NCBI RefSeq assembly: GCF_003259895.1
Contig: NZ_QLME01000018.1
Coordinates: forward strand, 1 to 63,673
Source: Halanaerobium saccharolyticum
Lineage (GTDB): Bacteria; Bacillota; Halanaerobiia; Halanaerobiales; Halanaerobiaceae
Reading direction: 5' to 3'
DNA: 63,673 nucleotides
A program made the position numbers and the translations under genes. Below, piece after piece: positions 5,291-13,178 of this stretch (within the stretch, counting starts at the first letter, position 1; each line of letters starts with the position of its first letter). Below the pieces are notes generated by a model that ran no database searches, had not been told where the DNA came from, and worked only from the letters and a program-made list of their open reading frames with translations.

Positions 5291-5310
5291 TATTAAAATT
5301 TAATATATAA

Positions 5311-5548
5311 TCCTGTTAAAGGAAGAGTAAATTTTAAATTAGTCTAAGCAAGCTGGAGTAGCTGTGAGTCCAGAACTAAGGTTGAATTGAAACGCATCCT
5401 GGAGGAGCTTTGCTGAAAAATATATAATAATATTTTAGGTAAAGACATTTAAGCTGTGTTAAAGCATTGAGTGGATTTTTGTCAAGAAGAGTGGTACCAC
5501 GGGTTTATTCTCGTCTCTAATTTATTTTAGGGGACGGGATTTTTTGTT
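5311..5548 (+). promoter_or_regulatory. T-box riboswitch upstream of amino-acid transport operon
   Basis: Hallmarks are the GGAAGAGTA start of Stem I, the distal-loop segment GCTGTGAGTCCAG, and the antiterminator T-box core GAGTGGTACCACGGG (5489-5503), followed by a terminator hairpin (about 5509-5541) and a T run. T-boxes read uncharged tRNA. Aligning this Stem I with the serS T-box in the same window (GAA-specifier-four bases-TGGAG) puts CGC (Arg) at 5393-5395 in the specifier position, followed by A as expected. ACG (Thr) at 5392-5394 is the alternative. The class call is firm; the amino acid is tentative. Confidence 0.9.
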
Positions 5549-5602
5549 TTATAGTATTTTTTAAAAATCTAAGGTGATAATATTTGAGGAGGAGAGAAGA
5601 AG

Positions 5603-6415
5603 ATGTTTAAAAGCAAAAAAATTATTTTATTATTAGTGATGATTGTTGGAGTTTCTTTATTATTAAGTGGTTGTACTGGTGGCAATAACCAGACGAAGTT
5701 TGAAAAAATAAAAGAAGAAGGAAAAATTGTTTTGGGAACAGCTGCTGATTACCCACCATATGAGTTTCATAAACAAATTGATGGTGAAGATCAAATTGTA
5801 GGTTTTGATATTGAGATAGCAAAAGAAATTGCAAATGATTTAGATGTAGACTTAGAAATTAAAGATATGAAATTTGATGGATTATTAGCCGCCTTAAAAG
5901 CCGGTAATATTGATTTTATTATTGCAGGAATGGTTCCTACAGAAGAAAGAGCTGAAAGTGTAGATTTTTCTATTCCTTACTATGAAGCTGAACAAAGTTT
6001 TTTAACTAAAGTAGAAAATAAATCTAATTATAAAAAAATGTCGGATTTAAATGGTCTAAAAATTGGAGCTCAAAAAGCAACTACTCAGGAAAATATTGCA
6101 AAAACAAAGATTGATGCTTCTGAGTATAAATTTATCAGCAAAATAACCGATCTAGTTTTGGAGCTTAAAAATGATAAAATTGATGGAATAGTTCTCGTTA
6201 AACCTGTTGCTGAATCATATGCAAAAGCAAATGGAGATTTAGCTGTAGCTGATTTTATGTTGGGAAAAGAAGATAGTATTGCAATAGCAGTTGATAAAGG
6301 AAATGAAGCTTTAATGAAAGAAATTAATTCTTCTTTAGAAAGATTATTGGAAAAAAACAAAATCACAGAATTTATTGCTGAAGCTACAAAATTAGCTGAG
6401 TCTAACCAGGATTGA
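5603..6415 (+). CDS. Amino-acid ABC transporter substrate-binding lipoprotein
   Basis: A 270-residue extracytoplasmic solute-binding protein of the polar-amino-acid family (SBP_bac_3). The lipoprotein signal peptide ends in LLLSGC with lipidated Cys24. The mature part shows the family pattern GTAADYPPYEF, VGFDIEIAKEIA, DGLLAALKAGNIDFIIAGM and ERAESVDFSIPYY. It delivers an amino acid to the permease and ATPase encoded about 3 kb downstream in the same operon. RBS GAGGAGGAG precedes the ATG. The overlying T-box suggests the ligand is the amino acid read by the leader, possibly arginine, but ligand identity cannot be read from the sequence. Confidence 0.92.
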   Translation: MFKSKKIILLLVMIVGVSLLLSGCTGGNNQTKFEKIKEEGKIVLGTAADYPPYEFHKQIDGEDQIVGFDIEIAKEIANDLDVDLEIKDMKFDGLLAALKAGNIDFIIAGMVPTEERAESVDFSIPYYEAEQSFLTKVENKSNYKKMSDLNGLKIGAQKATTQENIAKTKIDASEYKFISKITDLVLELKNDKIDGIVLVKPVAESYAKANGDLAVADFMLGKEDSIAIAVDKGNEALMKEINSSLERLLEKNKITEFIAEATKLAESNQD

Positions 6416-6441
6416 TAAAATTGAAAATTAGGAATGATAAG

Positions 6442-7605
6442 ATGAGCAATCGATATTTAAGTAGTATTTTTAAAAAAGAAAAAAAATCATTTTTTGCAAA
6501 AGCTGCAGAACTAAAAGAATCTAAAAAACATATAATAGATTTAAGTCTTGGCGATCCAGATTTAATTACAGCCAAAGAAATTATTAATAAAGCAACTTTT
6601 GATGCAAAAAATGGGCATACTCGTTATGCTCATCCTCGAGGCGATTATGAACTACGGACAGAAATTATAAAGTATTATAAAAAAACATATGATCAGAAAA
6701 TAGCCAGAGAAAAAATTATGCTGACTGTTGGGGCCTGTCATGGAACATTTCTGGCTCTAGCAGCAGTTTTGAATCCTGGAGAAGAAGTAATTATACCTTC
6801 TCCTTATTTTGCTCCTTATAAAGAACAGGTAAAACTTGTCGGAGGGCAAGCTGTTTTTGTTGAAAGTAAATTTGAAGATAATTTTAAACTAGATCTTAAA
6901 GCTATTAATGAAGCAGTAAATAAAAAAACGAAAGCTATTCTTATAAATTCTCCTCATAATCCTACTGGAGTTGTACAATCAAAAGAAATTTTAGATCAAT
7001 TAATGGAGATAGCAAGAGCAAATGATCTATTAATTTTCTCTGATGAAGTGTATGAAAGTTTTGATTTTGAAAATAAATTCCACTCTTTAATAAATTACAA
7101 AGAAGATTTTGAGAGAATTATAATCCTAAATAGTTTTTCAAAAACTTTTGCTATGACGGGTTGGAGATTAGGTTTTGTTATTGCGGATTCAGATATTTTA
7201 GATGTAATGCAAAATATTAATGAAGGTGTCTGCTATTCTGCCCCAACGATTTCTCAACGAGCAGCAACCGCTGCCTTAAAAAATGAAAATAAGTTTAAAA
7301 CTGAAATTACTGTTGAATTCTCTGAAAGAGTAAAATATGCTAACCATAGACTAAAAGAAAATAAAATAATTGAGGTTGTAGAGGCTGAAGGAGCATTTTA
7401 TATTTTTCCAAGAATTAAAAATACAGGTCTCACGGCTGAAGAATTTGCTTTGAGATTACTAAAGGAAAAAGAAGTTTTGGTTTTACCAGGAAATGATTTT
7501 GGTGATAAAAAAGGAGAATTTATAAGAATCGCCTGTACTTTAAAATTAGAAGAATTAAAAAAAGCTTTTGATAGAATAGATGAATTTACTGAACAATTTT
7601 TTTAA
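6442..7605 (+). CDS. Class I/II PLP-dependent aminotransferase
   Basis: A 387-residue fold-type I aminotransferase of the aspartate aminotransferase superfamily. PLP lysine is Lys234 in NSFSKTFAMTGWRLGF; upstream are the family motifs SLGDPD, NSPHNPTG and SDEVYE. I prefer ATG 6442, which has TTAGGA upstream, over the in-frame TTG at 6412 that overlaps the preceding stop. The gene lies between the binding-protein gene and the LarA-like gene, an unusual place for an aminotransferase. It probably converts the imported amino acid to its 2-oxo acid or the reverse. The substrate is not determinable from the motifs. Confidence 0.88.
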   Translation: MSNRYLSSIFKKEKKSFFAKAAELKESKKHIIDLSLGDPDLITAKEIINKATFDAKNGHTRYAHPRGDYELRTEIIKYYKKTYDQKIAREKIMLTVGACHGTFLALAAVLNPGEEVIIPSPYFAPYKEQVKLVGGQAVFVESKFEDNFKLDLKAINEAVNKKTKAILINSPHNPTGVVQSKEILDQLMEIARANDLLIFSDEVYESFDFENKFHSLINYKEDFERIIILNSFSKTFAMTGWRLGFVIADSDILDVMQNINEGVCYSAPTISQRAATAALKNENKFKTEITVEFSERVKYANHRLKENKIIEVVEAEGAFYIFPRIKNTGLTAEEFALRLLKEKEVLVLPGNDFGDKKGEFIRIACTLKLEELKKAFDRIDEFTEQFF

Positions 7606-7638
7606 AATAATTACGTAAAAAAGATTGGGGTGAATAAT

Positions 7639-8931
7639 TTGCAGCAAGAAATTTCCTTAAAATATGGAGAAAACAAATTTGAACTTAGAATAAAAAAAGA
7701 TAGAATAAAAAACATTATTACTGCAAATTCTGTTGAAAAAGTTGAATTTGATAAAATGATTAGTCATGCTTTAAAGAATCCAATCGGAACTAAAAGGTTG
7801 AGCCAAAAAATGAAGGTTGGAGAAAGTGTTACAGTTGTAATATCTGATATAACAAGAAGTTGGCAGCAGATTGATAAGTTTCTACCATTTCTAATTGCTG
7901 AATTAGAAAAAGGTGGAATTAAGCTTGCAGATATTACTATACTGGCGGCAACCGGTTCTCATCGTTTTCATACGGAAAAAGAAATTCAATCGCTACTTGG
8001 AGAAGAGTATTATGGTAAGTTGAATTTTATTGATCATGATGCTAACGATAAAAAACAATTAGAATTTTTAGGAGAAACTTCTTTTGGTACTCCAGTTTGG
8101 ATTAATAAATTAGCTCTAGATGCTGATCGCTTAATTTTAACAGGTGGAATTGTTTTTCATGACCTGGCTGGTTTTGCGGGAGGTAGGAAATCAATTCTAC
8201 CTGGTATTGCAGGTTATGAATCAATTATGAAAAATCATTCTCTTTCTTTAAAAAAAGATGAGGGAGGAATTAAAGAAACTGTTACAAGTAACAATTTAGC
8301 AAATAATCCAGTTAATTTAGATATGCTGGAAGCGGCCAAAATGGTTAATGTCGATTTTATTTTCAATGTACTACCTGATGGGGCGGGTGGTATTGCAGCA
8401 GCAGTGGCTGGGGATTTAATTAAGGCTCATGAAAAAGGCTGTGATATTTGCAGAAATTTATTTGGAATTCAAATGGAGGAAAAAGCTGAGCTTGTTTTTG
8501 CTTCCTGTGGTGGTTATCCAAAAGATATCAATTTATATCAGGGATCTAAATCACTTGTAAATGCTGTTCAGGCTGTTAAAAAAAATGGGTATTTAGTTTT
8601 ACTTTCAGAATGTAGAGAAGGGATTGGTCATCCAGAGGTCAAAGAAATAATTGAGAATTATAAAAGTAATATTGAGCGGGAGAAATATTTACGCAATAAC
8701 TTTACTATTTCTCGTTACACAGGATATTTAATCACTAAAGAAATTGAAGACATCAATTTAATTTTGGTTAGTGAACTTGATAAAAAGATATTAAGCAGTA
8801 CAAAGATAGAGGTCGTTGATAACTTGAAAGATGCTCTAAAGATTGTGGAAGCAGCATTTGAAGAACTGCCTGAGACATATGTTATGCCGGCAGCAGCAAA
8901 TACTCTTCCAATATTTAAAGCTGATGATTAG
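7639..8931 (+). CDS. LarA-family nickel-pincer racemase/epimerase
   Basis: A member of the LarA (DUF2088) family, of which lactate racemase is the founder. TTG 7639 is chosen because GGGGTG lies six bases upstream; the in-frame GTG 7630 overlaps that site. With this start (430 residues) the key residues fall at His108 (TGSHR), His174 (GIVFH), Lys184 (GGRKSILPG) and His200 (KNHSL). As far as I recall these are the numbers of the catalytic histidines, the cofactor-bearing lysine and the nickel ligand in Lactobacillus LarA. The active site therefore looks complete. The cofactor makers LarB, LarC and LarE are not in this window. Relatives act on several 2-hydroxy acids, so the substrate is open; the amino-acid transport operon around it is unusual. 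Confidence 0.88.
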   Translation: MQQEISLKYGENKFELRIKKDRIKNIITANSVEKVEFDKMISHALKNPIGTKRLSQKMKVGESVTVVISDITRSWQQIDKFLPFLIAELEKGGIKLADITILAATGSHRFHTEKEIQSLLGEEYYGKLNFIDHDANDKKQLEFLGETSFGTPVWINKLALDADRLILTGGIVFHDLAGFAGGRKSILPGIAGYESIMKNHSLSLKKDEGGIKETVTSNNLANNPVNLDMLEAAKMVNVDFIFNVLPDGAGGIAAAVAGDLIKAHEKGCDICRNLFGIQMEEKAELVFASCGGYPKDINLYQGSKSLVNAVQAVKKNGYLVLLSECREGIGHPEVKEIIENYKSNIEREKYLRNNFTISRYTGYLITKEIEDINLILVSELDKKILSSTKIEVVDNLKDALKIVEAAFEELPETYVMPAAANTLPIFKADD

Positions 8932-8940
8932 GGGGATAAC

Positions 8941-9618
8941 ATGGATTTTTCATTTTTAGCTGATTATAAAGGTTTTTTTATTAGGGGAACACAGATCACA
9001 ATTTTACTGGCATTTTTTGCAGTTTTATTTGGTATTTTAATCGGAATAGTTTTAGCTATGTTTAAAATTTCAAGCAACAAATTTTTAAAAGGAATTGCCT
9101 CAGTTTATATTGAATTTATTAGAGGAACACCGCTTTTGGTTCAGTTATTTATTATCTATTATGGTCTTCCATACTTGGGTATTGAATTCCCTGATTTTCC
9201 ATTATTTGGCCAGAACGTAGGAGATTTTATGGCCGGGGTAATTGCAATGTCTGTTAATAGTGGGGCCTATGTTGCTGAAATTTTTAGAGCTGGTATTCAG
9301 GCAGTGGATAAAGGTCAAATGGAAGCAGCTCGTTCTTTAGGTATGCCCTATTTGATGTCGATGAAGAAAATAATATTACCTCAGGCGTTTAAAAATATAC
9401 TACCTGCTTTAGGTAATGAATTTATAGTTGTAATTAAAGAATCAGCGATAGTTTCAATTATTGGTATTCACGATTTAATGTATAATGCAGATACTGTAAG
9501 AGGAAATACGTTTAAGCCTTTTGCACCTTTAATTGTAGCAGCTGTGATTTATTTTGTAATTACTTTTACCCTTTCTAAATTTGTTGGATTACTTGAAAAA
9601 AGGATGGATACAGAATGA
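8941..9618 (+). CDS. Amino-acid ABC transporter permease
   Basis: A 225-residue inner-membrane permease of the His/Glu/Gln transporter family. It has several hydrophobic helices and the EAA loop region [20 protein letters not shown], which docks on the ATPase; [19 protein letters not shown] is also characteristic. GGGGG precedes the ATG, nine bases after the LarA-like gene. Only one permease gene is present, so the transporter probably uses a homodimer. The gene overlaps the ATPase gene by four bases, indicating translational coupling. Confidence 0.93.
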
Positions 9619-10355
9619 ATATGATAGAAATTAATAAATTAAATAAATATTTTGGAGATTTGCATGTCCTCAAAGATATAGATTTAAAGGTAAAGGAGGG
9701 AGAGGTGGTTTCTGTAATTGGACCCAGTGGTTCAGGAAAAAGTACCCTTCTCCGCTGCTTAAATAGATTAGAAGAGCCCAGTTCTGGGGATATTATTTTT
9801 GAAGATATTTCAATTATGGATGATGAGCAGCATGATATAAATGAATTGAGACAGAAAATGGGGATGGTTTTTCAGCAGTTCAATCTATTTAATCATATGA
9901 ATGTAATGGAAAATATCACTTTAGCTCCTATAAAATTAAAAAAAATAAACAAAAACGAAGCTAAAAAAATTGCTTTAGATTTATTAGAAAAAGTTGGCCT
10001 TTTAAATAAAGCAGATGCCTATCCGTCCCAATTGTCGGGTGGACAAAAACAGAGGATTGCTATTGCTCGGGCTCTTGCTATGTCGCCTGATGTAATGCTT
10101 TTTGATGAACCAACATCTGCTTTAGATCCGGAAATGGTCGGAGATGTATTAGAAGTCATGAAAAATTTGGCTGCAGAAGGTATGACAATGGTCATTGTTA
10201 CTCATGAAATGAGCTTTGCGCGCGATGTTGCAGATCGAGTAGTTATTATGGATGCGGGTAATATTATTGAAGAGGGAAATCCTAAAAAAATATTTAATAA
10301 TCCTGAACATCCGAGAGCCAAAGACTTTTTAAGCAGAGTACTTAATCTATTTTAG
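9615..10355 (+). CDS. Amino-acid ABC transporter ATP-binding protein
   Basis: A 246-residue ATPase of the polar-amino-acid importer class (GlnQ/HisP-like). It shows Walker [11 protein letters not shown]-loop VFQQFNLF, signature [15 protein letters not shown], Walker [15 protein letters not shown] and the H-loop in VTHEM. It overlaps the permease stop (ATGA) and completes the importer with the binding protein and permease of this operon. The last codons form the 5' strand of the operon terminator. Confidence 0.95.
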
Positions 10356-10479: not shown

Positions 10480-11604
10480 ATGATAATTGCTGTACCCAGA
10501 GAAATTAAAAATAATGAGAATCGGGTAGCTTTAACTGCTGCTGGAGCTGAAATTTTGAAAAAAACAGGCCATCAAATTTTAGTCGAAAAAAATGCAGGTC
10601 AGGGAAGTGGTATTTTTGATCAGGATTATAAAAAGGCTGGAGCCGAAATAGTTGCTGATAAAAAAGAGCTTTTTCAAAAAGCAGAAATGATCATTAAAGT
10701 TAAGGAACCTCTAAAAGAAGAATATGATTTATTTAAAGAAGGTCAAATTTTATTTACTTATTTACATCTGGCTGCTGATCGGGAATTAACAGAAGCTTTA
10801 AAAGAAAAAAGTGTGACTGCTGTTGCTTATGAGACAGTACAGAATGAAGATGATGAGCTTCCGCTTTTAACACCGATGAGTGAAGTAGCGGGCAGATTAT
10901 CAGTGCAGGCTGCAGCTTCTTTTCTGGAAAAACCTAAAGGTGGAAGTGGAGTTCTGCTGGGGGGAGTACCTGGAGTTAAACCAGCTAAATTAGTTGTTAT
11001 AGGTGGTGGAATTGTAGGTCGTAATGCTGCCAAAGTTGCACACGGTATGGGTGCAGATATAACAATCATGGATATTAAACAGTCCACTATGCGCTATATT
11101 GATGATATTTTCCAGGGGAAAATAAAAACTATCATGTCAAATAATGCCCATGTGGCAGAAGAAGTGAGTCAGGCTGATGTAGTAATTGGAGCAGTTTTAA
11201 TTCCTGGAGCCAAAGCACCTAATCTGGTTACAGAAAAAATGATAAAAACTATGACTGATGGCTCTGTAGTTGTTGATGTGGCAATTGATCAGGGTGGATG
11301 TATAGAAGGTACATATCCAACAACTCACGATGATCCAATATTTAAAAAACACGGAGTTATTCATTATTCAGTAGCCAATATGCCGGGAGCAGTTGCTCGA
11401 ACCTCAACTTTTGCCCTGACTAATGCAACCCTTCCTTATATCAAAAAATTAGCTGCTCAGGGATATAAAAAAGCAATGTTGAATGATTATTCTCTGGCTT
11501 TAGGTTTAAATATTTATCAGGGAGAAATAGTCTGTCAGGCAGTTGCAGAAAGTTTTGATCAGGAACATAAAGACTTAGATCAGTTATTAAAAAAATGGAA
11601 GTAA
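10480..11604 (+). CDS. ald: Alanine dehydrogenase
   Basis: A 374-residue NAD-dependent alanine dehydrogenase interconverting L-alanine and pyruvate plus ammonium. Family marks are the N-terminal VPREIKNNENRVALT, the active-site His in TYLHLAAD, the gap region SEVAGRLSVQ, and the NAD Rossmann loop VVIGGGIVGRNAA. C-terminal MPGAVARTSTFALTNAT is diagnostic. Length is standard. It has its own GAGGAG ribosome site and is followed 80 bases later by alanine racemase, so both may serve alanine metabolism. Like the operon upstream, the pair concerns amino acids, but a terminator separates them. Confidence 0.95.
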   Translation: MIIAVPREIKNNENRVALTAAGAEILKKTGHQILVEKNAGQGSGIFDQDYKKAGAEIVADKKELFQKAEMIIKVKEPLKEEYDLFKEGQILFTYLHLAADRELTEALKEKSVTAVAYETVQNEDDELPLLTPMSEVAGRLSVQAAASFLEKPKGGSGVLLGGVPGVKPAKLVVIGGGIVGRNAAKVAHGMGADITIMDIKQSTMRYIDDIFQGKIKTIMSNNAHVAEEVSQADVVIGAVLIPGAKAPNLVTEKMIKTMTDGSVVVDVAIDQGGCIEGTYPTTHDDPIFKKHGVIHYSVANMPGAVARTSTFALTNATLPYIKKLAAQGYKKAMLNDYSLALGLNIYQGEIVCQAVAESFDQEHKDLDQLLKKWK

Positions 11605-11684
11605 AGCTCAGAATAAAAAATGCCACATGCAATTTGATTAAAATTAGATTTGAAGTATAGAAAGTAGTTGATGGAGGTAAAGAG

Positions 11685-12812
11685 ATGGAGCTACAATTAA
11701 AAAGGCCGGCCTGGGTGGAGATTGATCTCAGCGCCTTAGAAAATAATTATAATTTTATTCGCAGTAGAATTAATGAGCAGACTAAAATTGCTGCAGTTGT
11801 AAAAGCAAATGCCTATGGTCATGGAGTTGTAAAGGTAGCTCAAAAATTATCTCAACTGGGAGCCGAATATTTTTGTGTTGGCAGTCCGGATGAGGGAATT
11901 GAATTAAGAAAAGCAGGAATAACAGAGCCAATTTTAGTGCTGGCTGAAGTTTTGCCAACTCAGTATCCTGATATAATTAATGGAAATTTAATTCAAACAG
12001 CAGCCTCTATAAAAACTCTAGAATCTTTAAATAAAGCAGGAATTAAGGCGGCCAAAAAAGTAAAAGTTCATTTAAAAGTTGATACCGGGATGGGCAGAAT
12101 TGGATTTTTCCCAGAAGAGTTAGCTGAAGTTTATTCTCTGGCTCATAAATTAGAAAATATTAAAATTGAAGGAATTTTTTCTCATCTGGCAACAGCGGAT
12201 GAGGAGAAAAAAGATTTTTCTTATCAGCAGCTGCAGAGATTTAATTCTGCCCTGGATAAAATAAAAGCTGACGGATTTAAATTGCCGCTGCTCCATATTG
12301 CCAACAGTGCAGCTGTAATTGATATTAAAGAAAGCTCTTTAGATTTAGTTAGACCCGGAATTATGCTTTATGGGCTTCTACCGTCGGCTGAGTTGAATAA
12401 AGAAGCAGATTTGAAGTCGCTGTTATCATTTAAGACCAGGGTAGTCCAGCTTCGAAAATTGCCTGCTGGTTCTGCGGTCAGTTATGGTTCTACATATAAA
12501 ACTGAGACTGAGGAAAAACTTGCAGTTCTGCCGGTTGGTTATAAAGATGGATATCCACGACTTCTTTCTAACCAGGGAGAAGTTTTAATTAAGGGGCAAA
12601 GAGCACCAATCAGAGGTAGAGTCTGTATGGGTCAGACTATTGTCAGTGTTGATCAGATAGATAATGTTGAAGTTGGAGATGAAGTTGTTTTAATTGGCAA
12701 ACAGGGAAATGATGAAATATCAGCTGCTGAAATAGCTAATCTCTGTGGGACAATAAATTATGAGATAGTCTGCAATTTAAGTGAGCGGCTGGAAAAAGTC
12801 TATTTTGATTAA
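11685..12812 (+). CDS. alr: Alanine racemase
   Basis: A 375-residue fold-type III PLP racemase making D-alanine for peptidoglycan. The PLP lysine is Lys40 in AVVKANAYGHG and the second catalytic base is Tyr267 in SYGSTY. The C-terminal barrel follows. One oddity is that the normally conserved Cys-Met-Asp near the substrate entrance reads Cys314-Met315-Gly316 (RVCMGQ), so the aspartate is replaced by glycine. Other motifs are intact, and I expect activity. ATG is supported by GGAGG. It may be cotranscribed with ald. Confidence 0.94.
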   Translation: MELQLKRPAWVEIDLSALENNYNFIRSRINEQTKIAAVVKANAYGHGVVKVAQKLSQLGAEYFCVGSPDEGIELRKAGITEPILVLAEVLPTQYPDIINGNLIQTAASIKTLESLNKAGIKAAKKVKVHLKVDTGMGRIGFFPEELAEVYSLAHKLENIKIEGIFSHLATADEEKKDFSYQQLQRFNSALDKIKADGFKLPLLHIANSAAVIDIKESSLDLVRPGIMLYGLLPSAELNKEADLKSLLSFKTRVVQLRKLPAGSAVSYGSTYKTETEEKLAVLPVGYKDGYPRLLSNQGEVLIKGQRAPIRGRVCMGQTIVSVDQIDNVEVGDEVVLIGKQGNDEISAAEIANLCGTINYEIVCNLSERLEKVYFD

Positions 12813-12920: not shown

Positions 12921-12954
12921 GAGCATAATAAATAAATAGCCAACTATCTAAAAG

Positions 12955-13178
12955 CTGTGAAGGACAATAGTAGATTTATTAACTGAAATTAGAGAGCTGA
13001 TGGCTGCTGCAAATCAGTCAGTTAAAAATCGAATCCAGTCTGGAGCTGTGAGGCCGAAATAATTTGAGTAAGCTGAACCGGTTGAGTCCGTTAAAACTAT
13101 TTAAGCGGCGGCATTTTTGCTGTCATTAGGGTGGCACCACGAGCAATCTCGTCCCTTTTTCAGGGAGGGGTTTTTTTA
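12955..13178 (+). promoter_or_regulatory. Serine T-box riboswitch of serS
   Basis: A textbook T-box leader. Stem I shows the AGAGAGCTGATGG apical region and the specifier loop GAA-TCC-A with the serine codon TCC at 13034-13036. The T-box core AGGGTGGCACCACGAGC (from 13129) is followed by the terminator TCGTCCCTTTTTCAGGGAGGGG plus T run. The TCC specifier agrees with the seryl-tRNA synthetase downstream, so uncharged tRNA-Ser should promote read-through. Confidence 0.96.

Follow-up and report, generated by a model that had tools for sequence, protein, structure and literature searches.

The operon and its leader

The window analysed here is a 63,673 nucleotide stretch of Halanaerobium saccharolyticum DNA (contig NZ_QLME01000018.1), and the subject of this account is an operon on its + strand in which a T-box leader is followed by genes for a solute-binding protein (SBP), an aminotransferase, an enzyme of the LarA superfamily, and the permease and ATPase of an ATP-binding cassette (ABC) transporter. 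The features are as follows.

5306-5521, + strand: T-box leader, RF00230 (cmscan 108.1 bits against a gathering threshold of 93; E 4e-25 on a short stretch)
5393-5395, + strand: specifier codon CGC (arginine), in GAA-A-CGC-A, its register calibrated on T-boxes of the same genome
5490-5503, + strand: T-box sequence AGTGGTACCACGGG, read from the sequence, with an antiterminator-like stem in the fold of 5440-5515
5509-5545, + strand: leader terminator, a hairpin at 5509-5539 and then TTTTTT (RNAfold -13.2 kcal/mol)
5603-6415, + strand: solute-binding lipoprotein, SBP_bac_3 (PF00497; Pfam 118.7 bits against a cut-off of 26.4)
6442-7605, + strand: pyridoxal phosphate-dependent aminotransferase of class I/II (Pfam 242.6 bits), with an alternative TTG start at 6412
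7630-8931, + strand: LarA-superfamily enzyme of the nickel-pincer nucleotide (NPN) type (Lar_N 230.5 bits, LarA_C 55.1 bits)
8941-9618, + strand: ABC permease of the amino-acid type (BPD_transp_1; TIGR01726, HEQRo_perm_3TM, 94.3 bits against a cut-off of 42.2)
9615-10355, + strand: ABC ATPase, GlnQ-like (Pfam ABC_tran; best NCBIfam model GlnQ, 335 bits against a cut-off of 379)

This order was given in a preliminary description of the locus and is borne out, the T-box and all five genes being identified by Rfam and Pfam. The intergenic gaps from the binding protein to the ATPase are 26, 24, 9 and -4 bases. The sequence AGTGGTACCACGGG at 5490-5503 is presumably the antiterminator element that binds the acceptor end of the tRNA. 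The terminator hairpin sits between the T-box and the first gene and has an alternative stem (RNAfold); it was not among the terminators given by a separate scan tool, and the fold of the leader as a whole is unremarkable (z -1.57).

Among 38 Halanaerobiales genomes searched, the complete operon was found in five, namely the window genome and those designated G015, G018, G021 and G022, which span three genera (G018 is placed in the same genus as the window genome). Because the order of all six elements recurs in this way the arrangement is not due to chance, and these orthologous operons keep the LarA gene. Relatives of the binding protein at the level of at least 63% occur in exactly the same five genomes of the 38, with the next match at 42%.

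A T-box with an arginine specifier

The register of the specifier was calibrated on T-boxes of the same genome that precede serS (UCC), ileS (AUC), valS (GUC) and argG (CGC), these genes being named by NCBIfam and ileS being called from a cut piece that scores just below its cut-off. In this register the specifier of the operon leader is CGC. The preliminary description had the leader concern an amino acid, and that amino acid can now be named as arginine. All six operon T-boxes in the five genomes read CGC, and argG of the window genome likewise carries a CGC T-box. In G022 two tandem, near-identical CGC T-boxes lie ahead of the operon (L050:4438-5006). In G021 the carbamate kinase gene arcC directly follows the ATPase gene (L064:9874-10794; 393 bits against a cut-off of 358).

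The binding protein

Papers are cited here by PubMed Central accession. Proteins of this fold bind the N terminus of the ligand with a Thr and an Asp, and the carboxylate with an Arg that is five positions beyond the Thr. In a docking model of FliY the N terminus of cysteine is placed on Thr109 and Asp192 and the carboxylate on Arg114 (PMC7170509), and the ligand contacts of GlnBP include Gly68, Thr70, Arg75 and Asp157 (PMC7400645). The equivalents in the window protein, placed by alignment, are V111 and V199 at the ammonium positions and R116 at the carboxylate position. R116 is invariant in 16/16 aligned sequences. At the ammonium positions the other SBP_bac_3 proteins of the order that were compared, 27 in all and each from a place with a given locus, have Thr and Asp without exception, and Thr/Ser with Asp/Glu is the pattern in GlnH, HisJ, ArgT, TcyJ and 4ymx. 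The binding proteins linked to LarA, by contrast with these, have Val111 in 13/14 cases and Val or Ala at 199 in 13/14. K200 was considered as the changed ammonium residue and was ruled out by comparison with paralogues from the same genome and with the E. coli proteins, which place the position at V199.

In the list of structural matches to the binding protein, 10 of 50 rows have titles naming arginine-binding proteins, among them T. maritima ArgBP (6ggv; Z 21.7, rmsd, the root mean square deviation, 3.9, 210 aligned, 37% identity) and an ancestral arginine binder (4zv1; Z 20.6, rmsd 4.1, 218 aligned, 37% identity). The top two rows, 4h5f and 4i62, are 36% identical to the window protein and 4ymx is 40% identical; all three we take to be arginine binders. 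The highest identities in the list, 35-40%, belong to these three and to the titled arginine binders. The protein is thus, to judge from sequence, one with an arginine-type pocket in which the carboxylate site is retained and the ammonium site is gone. An amino-acid transporter as such, as the preliminary description had it, is not supported by these alignments. Because the side chains that would hold an alpha-ammonium group are both replaced (Val111, Val199), the imported ligand is probably an arginine analogue, 2-hydroxy or 2-oxo in kind.

Among the best 30 SBP loci in 391 Clostridia genomes, seven encode proteins of the Val/Val or Val/Ala type and three of these seven lie beside a LarA gene, compared with one of the other 23. 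The rows of the Val/Val type, 17 in number, fall on one side of a branch with support of 84 in a quick tree that used four of the 27 background rows and kept the two trait columns in the alignment. Two loci of this type that lack LarA have neighbours of some note: at L223 (8617-12013) the SBP, permease and ATPase genes are followed by a EutH-family gene (397 bits, over its cut-off), and at L225 (8478-14317) an agmatinase gene, also over its cut-off, lies approximately 2.6 kb downstream of the ATPase gene with other genes between.

The LarA enzyme and the aminotransferase

The residues R76, H111, H177, K187, H203, Y303, Q304 and K307 are all kept in the window LarA and are invariant in 8/8 aligned sequences. 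We take Y303, Q304 and K307 to be equivalent to the active-site Tyr, Gln and Lys. The roles of the other five, namely the two catalytic His (H111, H177), the Lys and Arg for NPN (K187, R76) and the nickel-ligand His (H203), have been described (PMC11770544). A structural model of the enzyme matches lactate and malate racemases at ranks 1-9 (Z 43.1-47.0, rmsd 2.0-3.6, 391-419 aligned), including the lactate racemases 2yjg (Z 47.0, rmsd 2.0, 410 aligned) and 5huq (Z 46.6, rmsd 2.2, 419 aligned) and the malate racemase Mar2 (6d6z; Z 43.9, rmsd 3.6, 391 aligned). The best NCBIfam model is LarAH10 (NF052525), at 471.1 bits and below its cut-off of 540. Specificity in LarA has been assigned to F175, F176, W358 and T359 (PMC11770544, section 6), where the window enzyme has D178, L179, Y363 and T364, D178 being placed by alignment. 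Y363 fits the hydrophobic (HHR) group at the W358 position but D178 does not.

The cofactor genes larB, larC and larE are all found in the window genome, all over their cut-offs and clustered at G000:C2:193842-196396. Thus neither of the two refutations offered in the preliminary description, absence of these genes or a general lack of LarA in orthologous operons, applies. LarC was found in 5/6 clostridial genomes that carry the gene cluster described below, the one miss being a metagenome-assembled genome. A second LarA of the window genome (L061:6233-12742) scores 644 against the lactate-racemase cut-off of 460; the GlcD-, Etf- and LctP-like genes in its vicinity all fall short of their own cut-offs, and the locus is likely to be a lactate-use operon.

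The best NCBIfam model for the window aminotransferase is PRK06348 (NF004975), at 477.3 bits against a cut-off of 549. Elsewhere the same model gives 512.4 at L076, again below the cut-off, and passing scores at L067 (568.8) and L222 (626.3). The motifs S-F-S-K and R-x-A-C-T are invariant in 12 members.

Linkage of D178 to the transporter

Genome contigs were scanned for LarA with DNA patterns that contained the Asp codon (TGGIV[FY]HD) and so favoured enzymes with Asp at this position (D-type); 54 loci resulted. Nine of the 54 have the Asp, and all nine adjoin genes for an SBP and a permease. A LarA open reading frame was called at 39 of the other 45, the six loci without one not being counted, and none of the 39 has the Asp or lies beside an SBP or permease gene; at two of them, L108 and L110, the reading frame scored was a second LarA. 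A profile built from D-type rows was also used to search the 391 Clostridia genomes, and 30 of the 36 places found were inspected over 1.5 kb on each side. Three were D-type and all three lie beside SBP and permease genes; none of the 27 others does. Neighbouring genes were recognised by BLAST against the window proteins with E up to 1e-8 or 1e-10, a level at which remote transporters could be missed, and weak transporter hits near LarAs that are not D-type were seen at L106 (ATPase, 36%), L162 (ATPase, 30%) and L055 (ATPase, 37%, and permeases, 22%, more than 4 kb off).

Merging of duplicates (L062-L064 being G018, G022 and G021) leaves 14 separate D-type loci, of which five are in Halanaerobiales and nine elsewhere, the latter including Clostridium thermopalmarium, two Tindallia and Anoxynatronum. 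All 14 lie beside binding protein and permease genes, and at 12 of them, the exceptions being L066 and L083, an aminotransferase is part of the cluster. The gene order is SBP-aminotransferase-LarA-permease-ATPase at the five Halanaerobiales loci and LarA-SBP-permease-ATPase(-aminotransferase) at the nine others. Because the orders differ, the link between LarA and the transporter either outlived a rearrangement or arose twice; on the LarA tree, also a quick one, linkage needs three changes.

In G011 and G013 the corresponding site, between a peptidyl-prolyl isomerase gene and serS, is occupied by a LarA orthologue (60%), with no SBP, aminotransferase, permease or ATPase gene there. Their enzymes have Pro in place of the Asp and are nested inside the operon clade of the tree. 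These stranded orthologues, with His-Pro for His-Asp, are at L051:7183-8475 and L049:7409-8704.

Several further features surround the operon in the window. Genes for alanine dehydrogenase and alanine racemase (10480-12812) lie 3' of it across a 124-base gap, and G015 and G021 likewise have alanine dehydrogenase close to the operon. The enzyme might provide the aminotransferase with alanine or draw alanine away from it, or it might have nothing to do with the operon. A second T-box (12948-13159, 129.9 bits) with the serine codon UCC is located 5' of serS, and a tRNA gene at 1-72 (Rfam 62.2 bits) is truncated where the contig begins.

A possible route for arginine salvage

We propose that the operon serves salvage in arginine starvation and that what it recovers is an analogue of arginine lacking the alpha-amino group; 2-hydroxyarginine (argininic acid), 2-oxoarginine or both are the likeliest candidates. 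We would give this a probability of about 0.5. Uncharged tRNA-Arg would cause the CGC T-box to permit transcriptional read-through, and the ABC importer would take up the analogue, with Arg116 on its carboxylate, an arginine-type pocket on its guanidinium group and two valines that would leave no site for an ammonium group. LarA with its NPN cofactor would then equilibrate the two 2-hydroxy isomers, D178 being predicted to face the cationic side chain from its position next to the second catalytic His. A hydroxy-acid dehydrogenase encoded elsewhere would produce 2-oxoarginine, which the aminotransferase would convert to L-arginine. More tentatively, this may represent an undescribed pathway, comprising T-box-controlled uptake of 2-hydroxy- or 2-oxoarginine through a family-3 binding protein that has given up its ammonium site, racemisation by an NPN enzyme of the D178 type, which would be the first to act on a cationic 2-hydroxy acid, and a final transamination that yields L-arginine, the enzyme set being common to Halanaerobiales and Clostridia.

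The preliminary description had suggested the opposite direction, from amino acid through 2-oxo acid to hydroxy acid. This is less likely because an arginine T-box switches genes on in starvation, and the direction is probably the reverse. What stands of that interpretation is the linkage of an amino-acid sensor, an aminotransferase and LarA in one unit; an amino acid as the substrate of LarA or of the transporter is not supported. We know of no source of argininic acid in brines. The compound does exist in nature, since it is listed as a uremic retention solute (PMC8745165).

A number of observations weigh against arginine salvage. In these operons no dehydrogenase was seen, and the rest of the genome was not searched for one. 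By sequence the window LarA is nearest to the 'hydrophobic' racemases (LarAH10), and an acid at the D178 position is no proof of a cationic substrate because gluconate epimerases usually have Glu there (PMC11770544). The presence of larB, larC and larE need not concern the LarA of the operon since they may instead serve the lactate racemase of the same genome. None of the nine clostridial D-type loci has a T-box (Rfam, up to E 0.05), so that arginine is directly indicated in Halanaerobiales only and is otherwise suggested by the one arcC neighbour and by homology to arginine binders. Glutamine, glutamate and tryptophan binders and cyclohexadienyl dehydratases are interspersed among the structural matches of the binding protein at similar Z and lower identity. 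The LarA-linked binding protein of C. thermopalmarium (L067) has Asn and Glu rather than two valines, and four binding proteins of the Val/Val type have no adjacent LarA (L222 has an aminotransferase, L223 and L224 have neither, the contig ending there in L224, and the fourth is L225). Finally, the Val/Val type needs a single change on the tree (support 84); both it and the linkage are inherited in clades and the cases are not independent.

Alternative explanations

It is also conceivable, if unlikely, that the operon serves plain arginine uptake and has gained, by insertion, a promiscuous LarA together with an aminotransferase for degrading arginine (by way of 2-oxoarginine to a hydroxy acid). 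There would be nothing unusual in an arginine transporter under an arginine T-box; the solved structures closest to the binding protein are, partly on our own assumption, those of arginine binders; and in the window, G015 and G021 the operon has an alanine dehydrogenase gene after it. LarAH10 itself accepts 16 substrates (PMC11770544). However, starvation control of breakdown genes makes little sense, both ammonium ligands are replaced in 13/14 binding proteins, and transporter and LarA remain together under either gene order and in both groups of bacteria.

More doubtful is a ligand that is some other guanidino acid with its amine absent or blocked (4-guanidinobutyrate, N-acyl-arginine, an opine or D-arginine), with LarA acting on a 2-hydroxy acid derived from it. 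The agmatinase gene downstream of the LarA-less transporter at L225 would suit this, as would OccJ-octopine (5org) among the structural matches (Z 19.9, rmsd 4.1, 219 aligned). Such ligands, though, offer LarA no direct substrate, and the aminotransferase present at 12/14 loci best fits a 2-oxo acid. It is rather improbable that the specificity is not for arginine at all, LarA, transporter and aminotransferase handling a different 2-hydroxy or 2-oxo acid and the T-box having been recruited indirectly; the clostridial loci, where arginine is suggested by homology only, agree with this, but the specifier is CGC in 6/6 codons from five genomes and three genera, and argG of the same genome has the same codon. 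The alternative raised in the preliminary description, that LarA is a nickel-dependent racemase of an amino acid (arginine), has gene neighbourhood as its one argument and was dismissed as extremely improbable, since the enzyme retains all hydroxy-acid catalytic residues, among them the two His that take the proton from the 2-hydroxyl, and every NPN contact, and the published LarA-family reactions, in the portions available, act on 2-hydroxy acids.

Significance

The substrates in a 2020 survey of the LarA family are counterparts of Ala, Val, Leu, Phe, Asp and Glu (PMC7583248), and a 2024 survey extends the list with, for example, glycerate and 2-hydroxycaproate (PMC11770544); no cationic substrate was found among the LarA-family substrates in the available portions of either. 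No described link between LarA, a T-box and arginine was found in the literature searched, with the proviso that Table S1 of PMC7583248, on LarA neighbours, may list the neighbourhood. If arginine salvage is correct, an arginine-like substrate would widen the LarA superfamily, and the T-box, by identifying the amino acid concerned, would give one member a well-defined function. The replacement of Thr/Asp by Val/Val may provide a sequence rule that separates importers of amine-less analogues from amino-acid importers. A natural control is provided by the relatives without the transporter, which are also without D178.

Comparison with known systems

The transporter resembles arginine importers such as T. 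maritima ArgBP and 4zv1, to which group AbpA and 4ymx presumably also belong, in the 35-40% identity of the binding protein, the carboxylate Arg and the presence of one permease and one ATPase gene. It differs in that their ammonium-binding Thr/Ser and Asp/Glu are Val and Val in the window protein.

With the HHR racemases (LarAH10, LarAH52 and LarAH66) the window LarA shares its best NCBIfam model, Phe or Tyr at the W358 position and the full catalytic set. Unlike them it scores below the cut-off, has the acidic D178 at the F175 position and is linked to an arginine-type importer and an aminotransferase. Mar2 (6d6z) and the lactate racemases (5huq, 2yjg) have the same fold over nearly the whole length and the same catalytic His, Lys and Arg, but in malate racemases a Lys takes the place of T359 and serves the second carboxylate, and LarA has F175 and F176 where the window enzyme has Asp and Leu, followed by Tyr and Thr at the other two positions (PMC11770544). 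The leader, finally, is an RF00230 element with the same CGC specifier as the arginine T-box of argG in the same genome, and differs in what it controls, namely a LarA and a transporter unlike amino-acid transporters.

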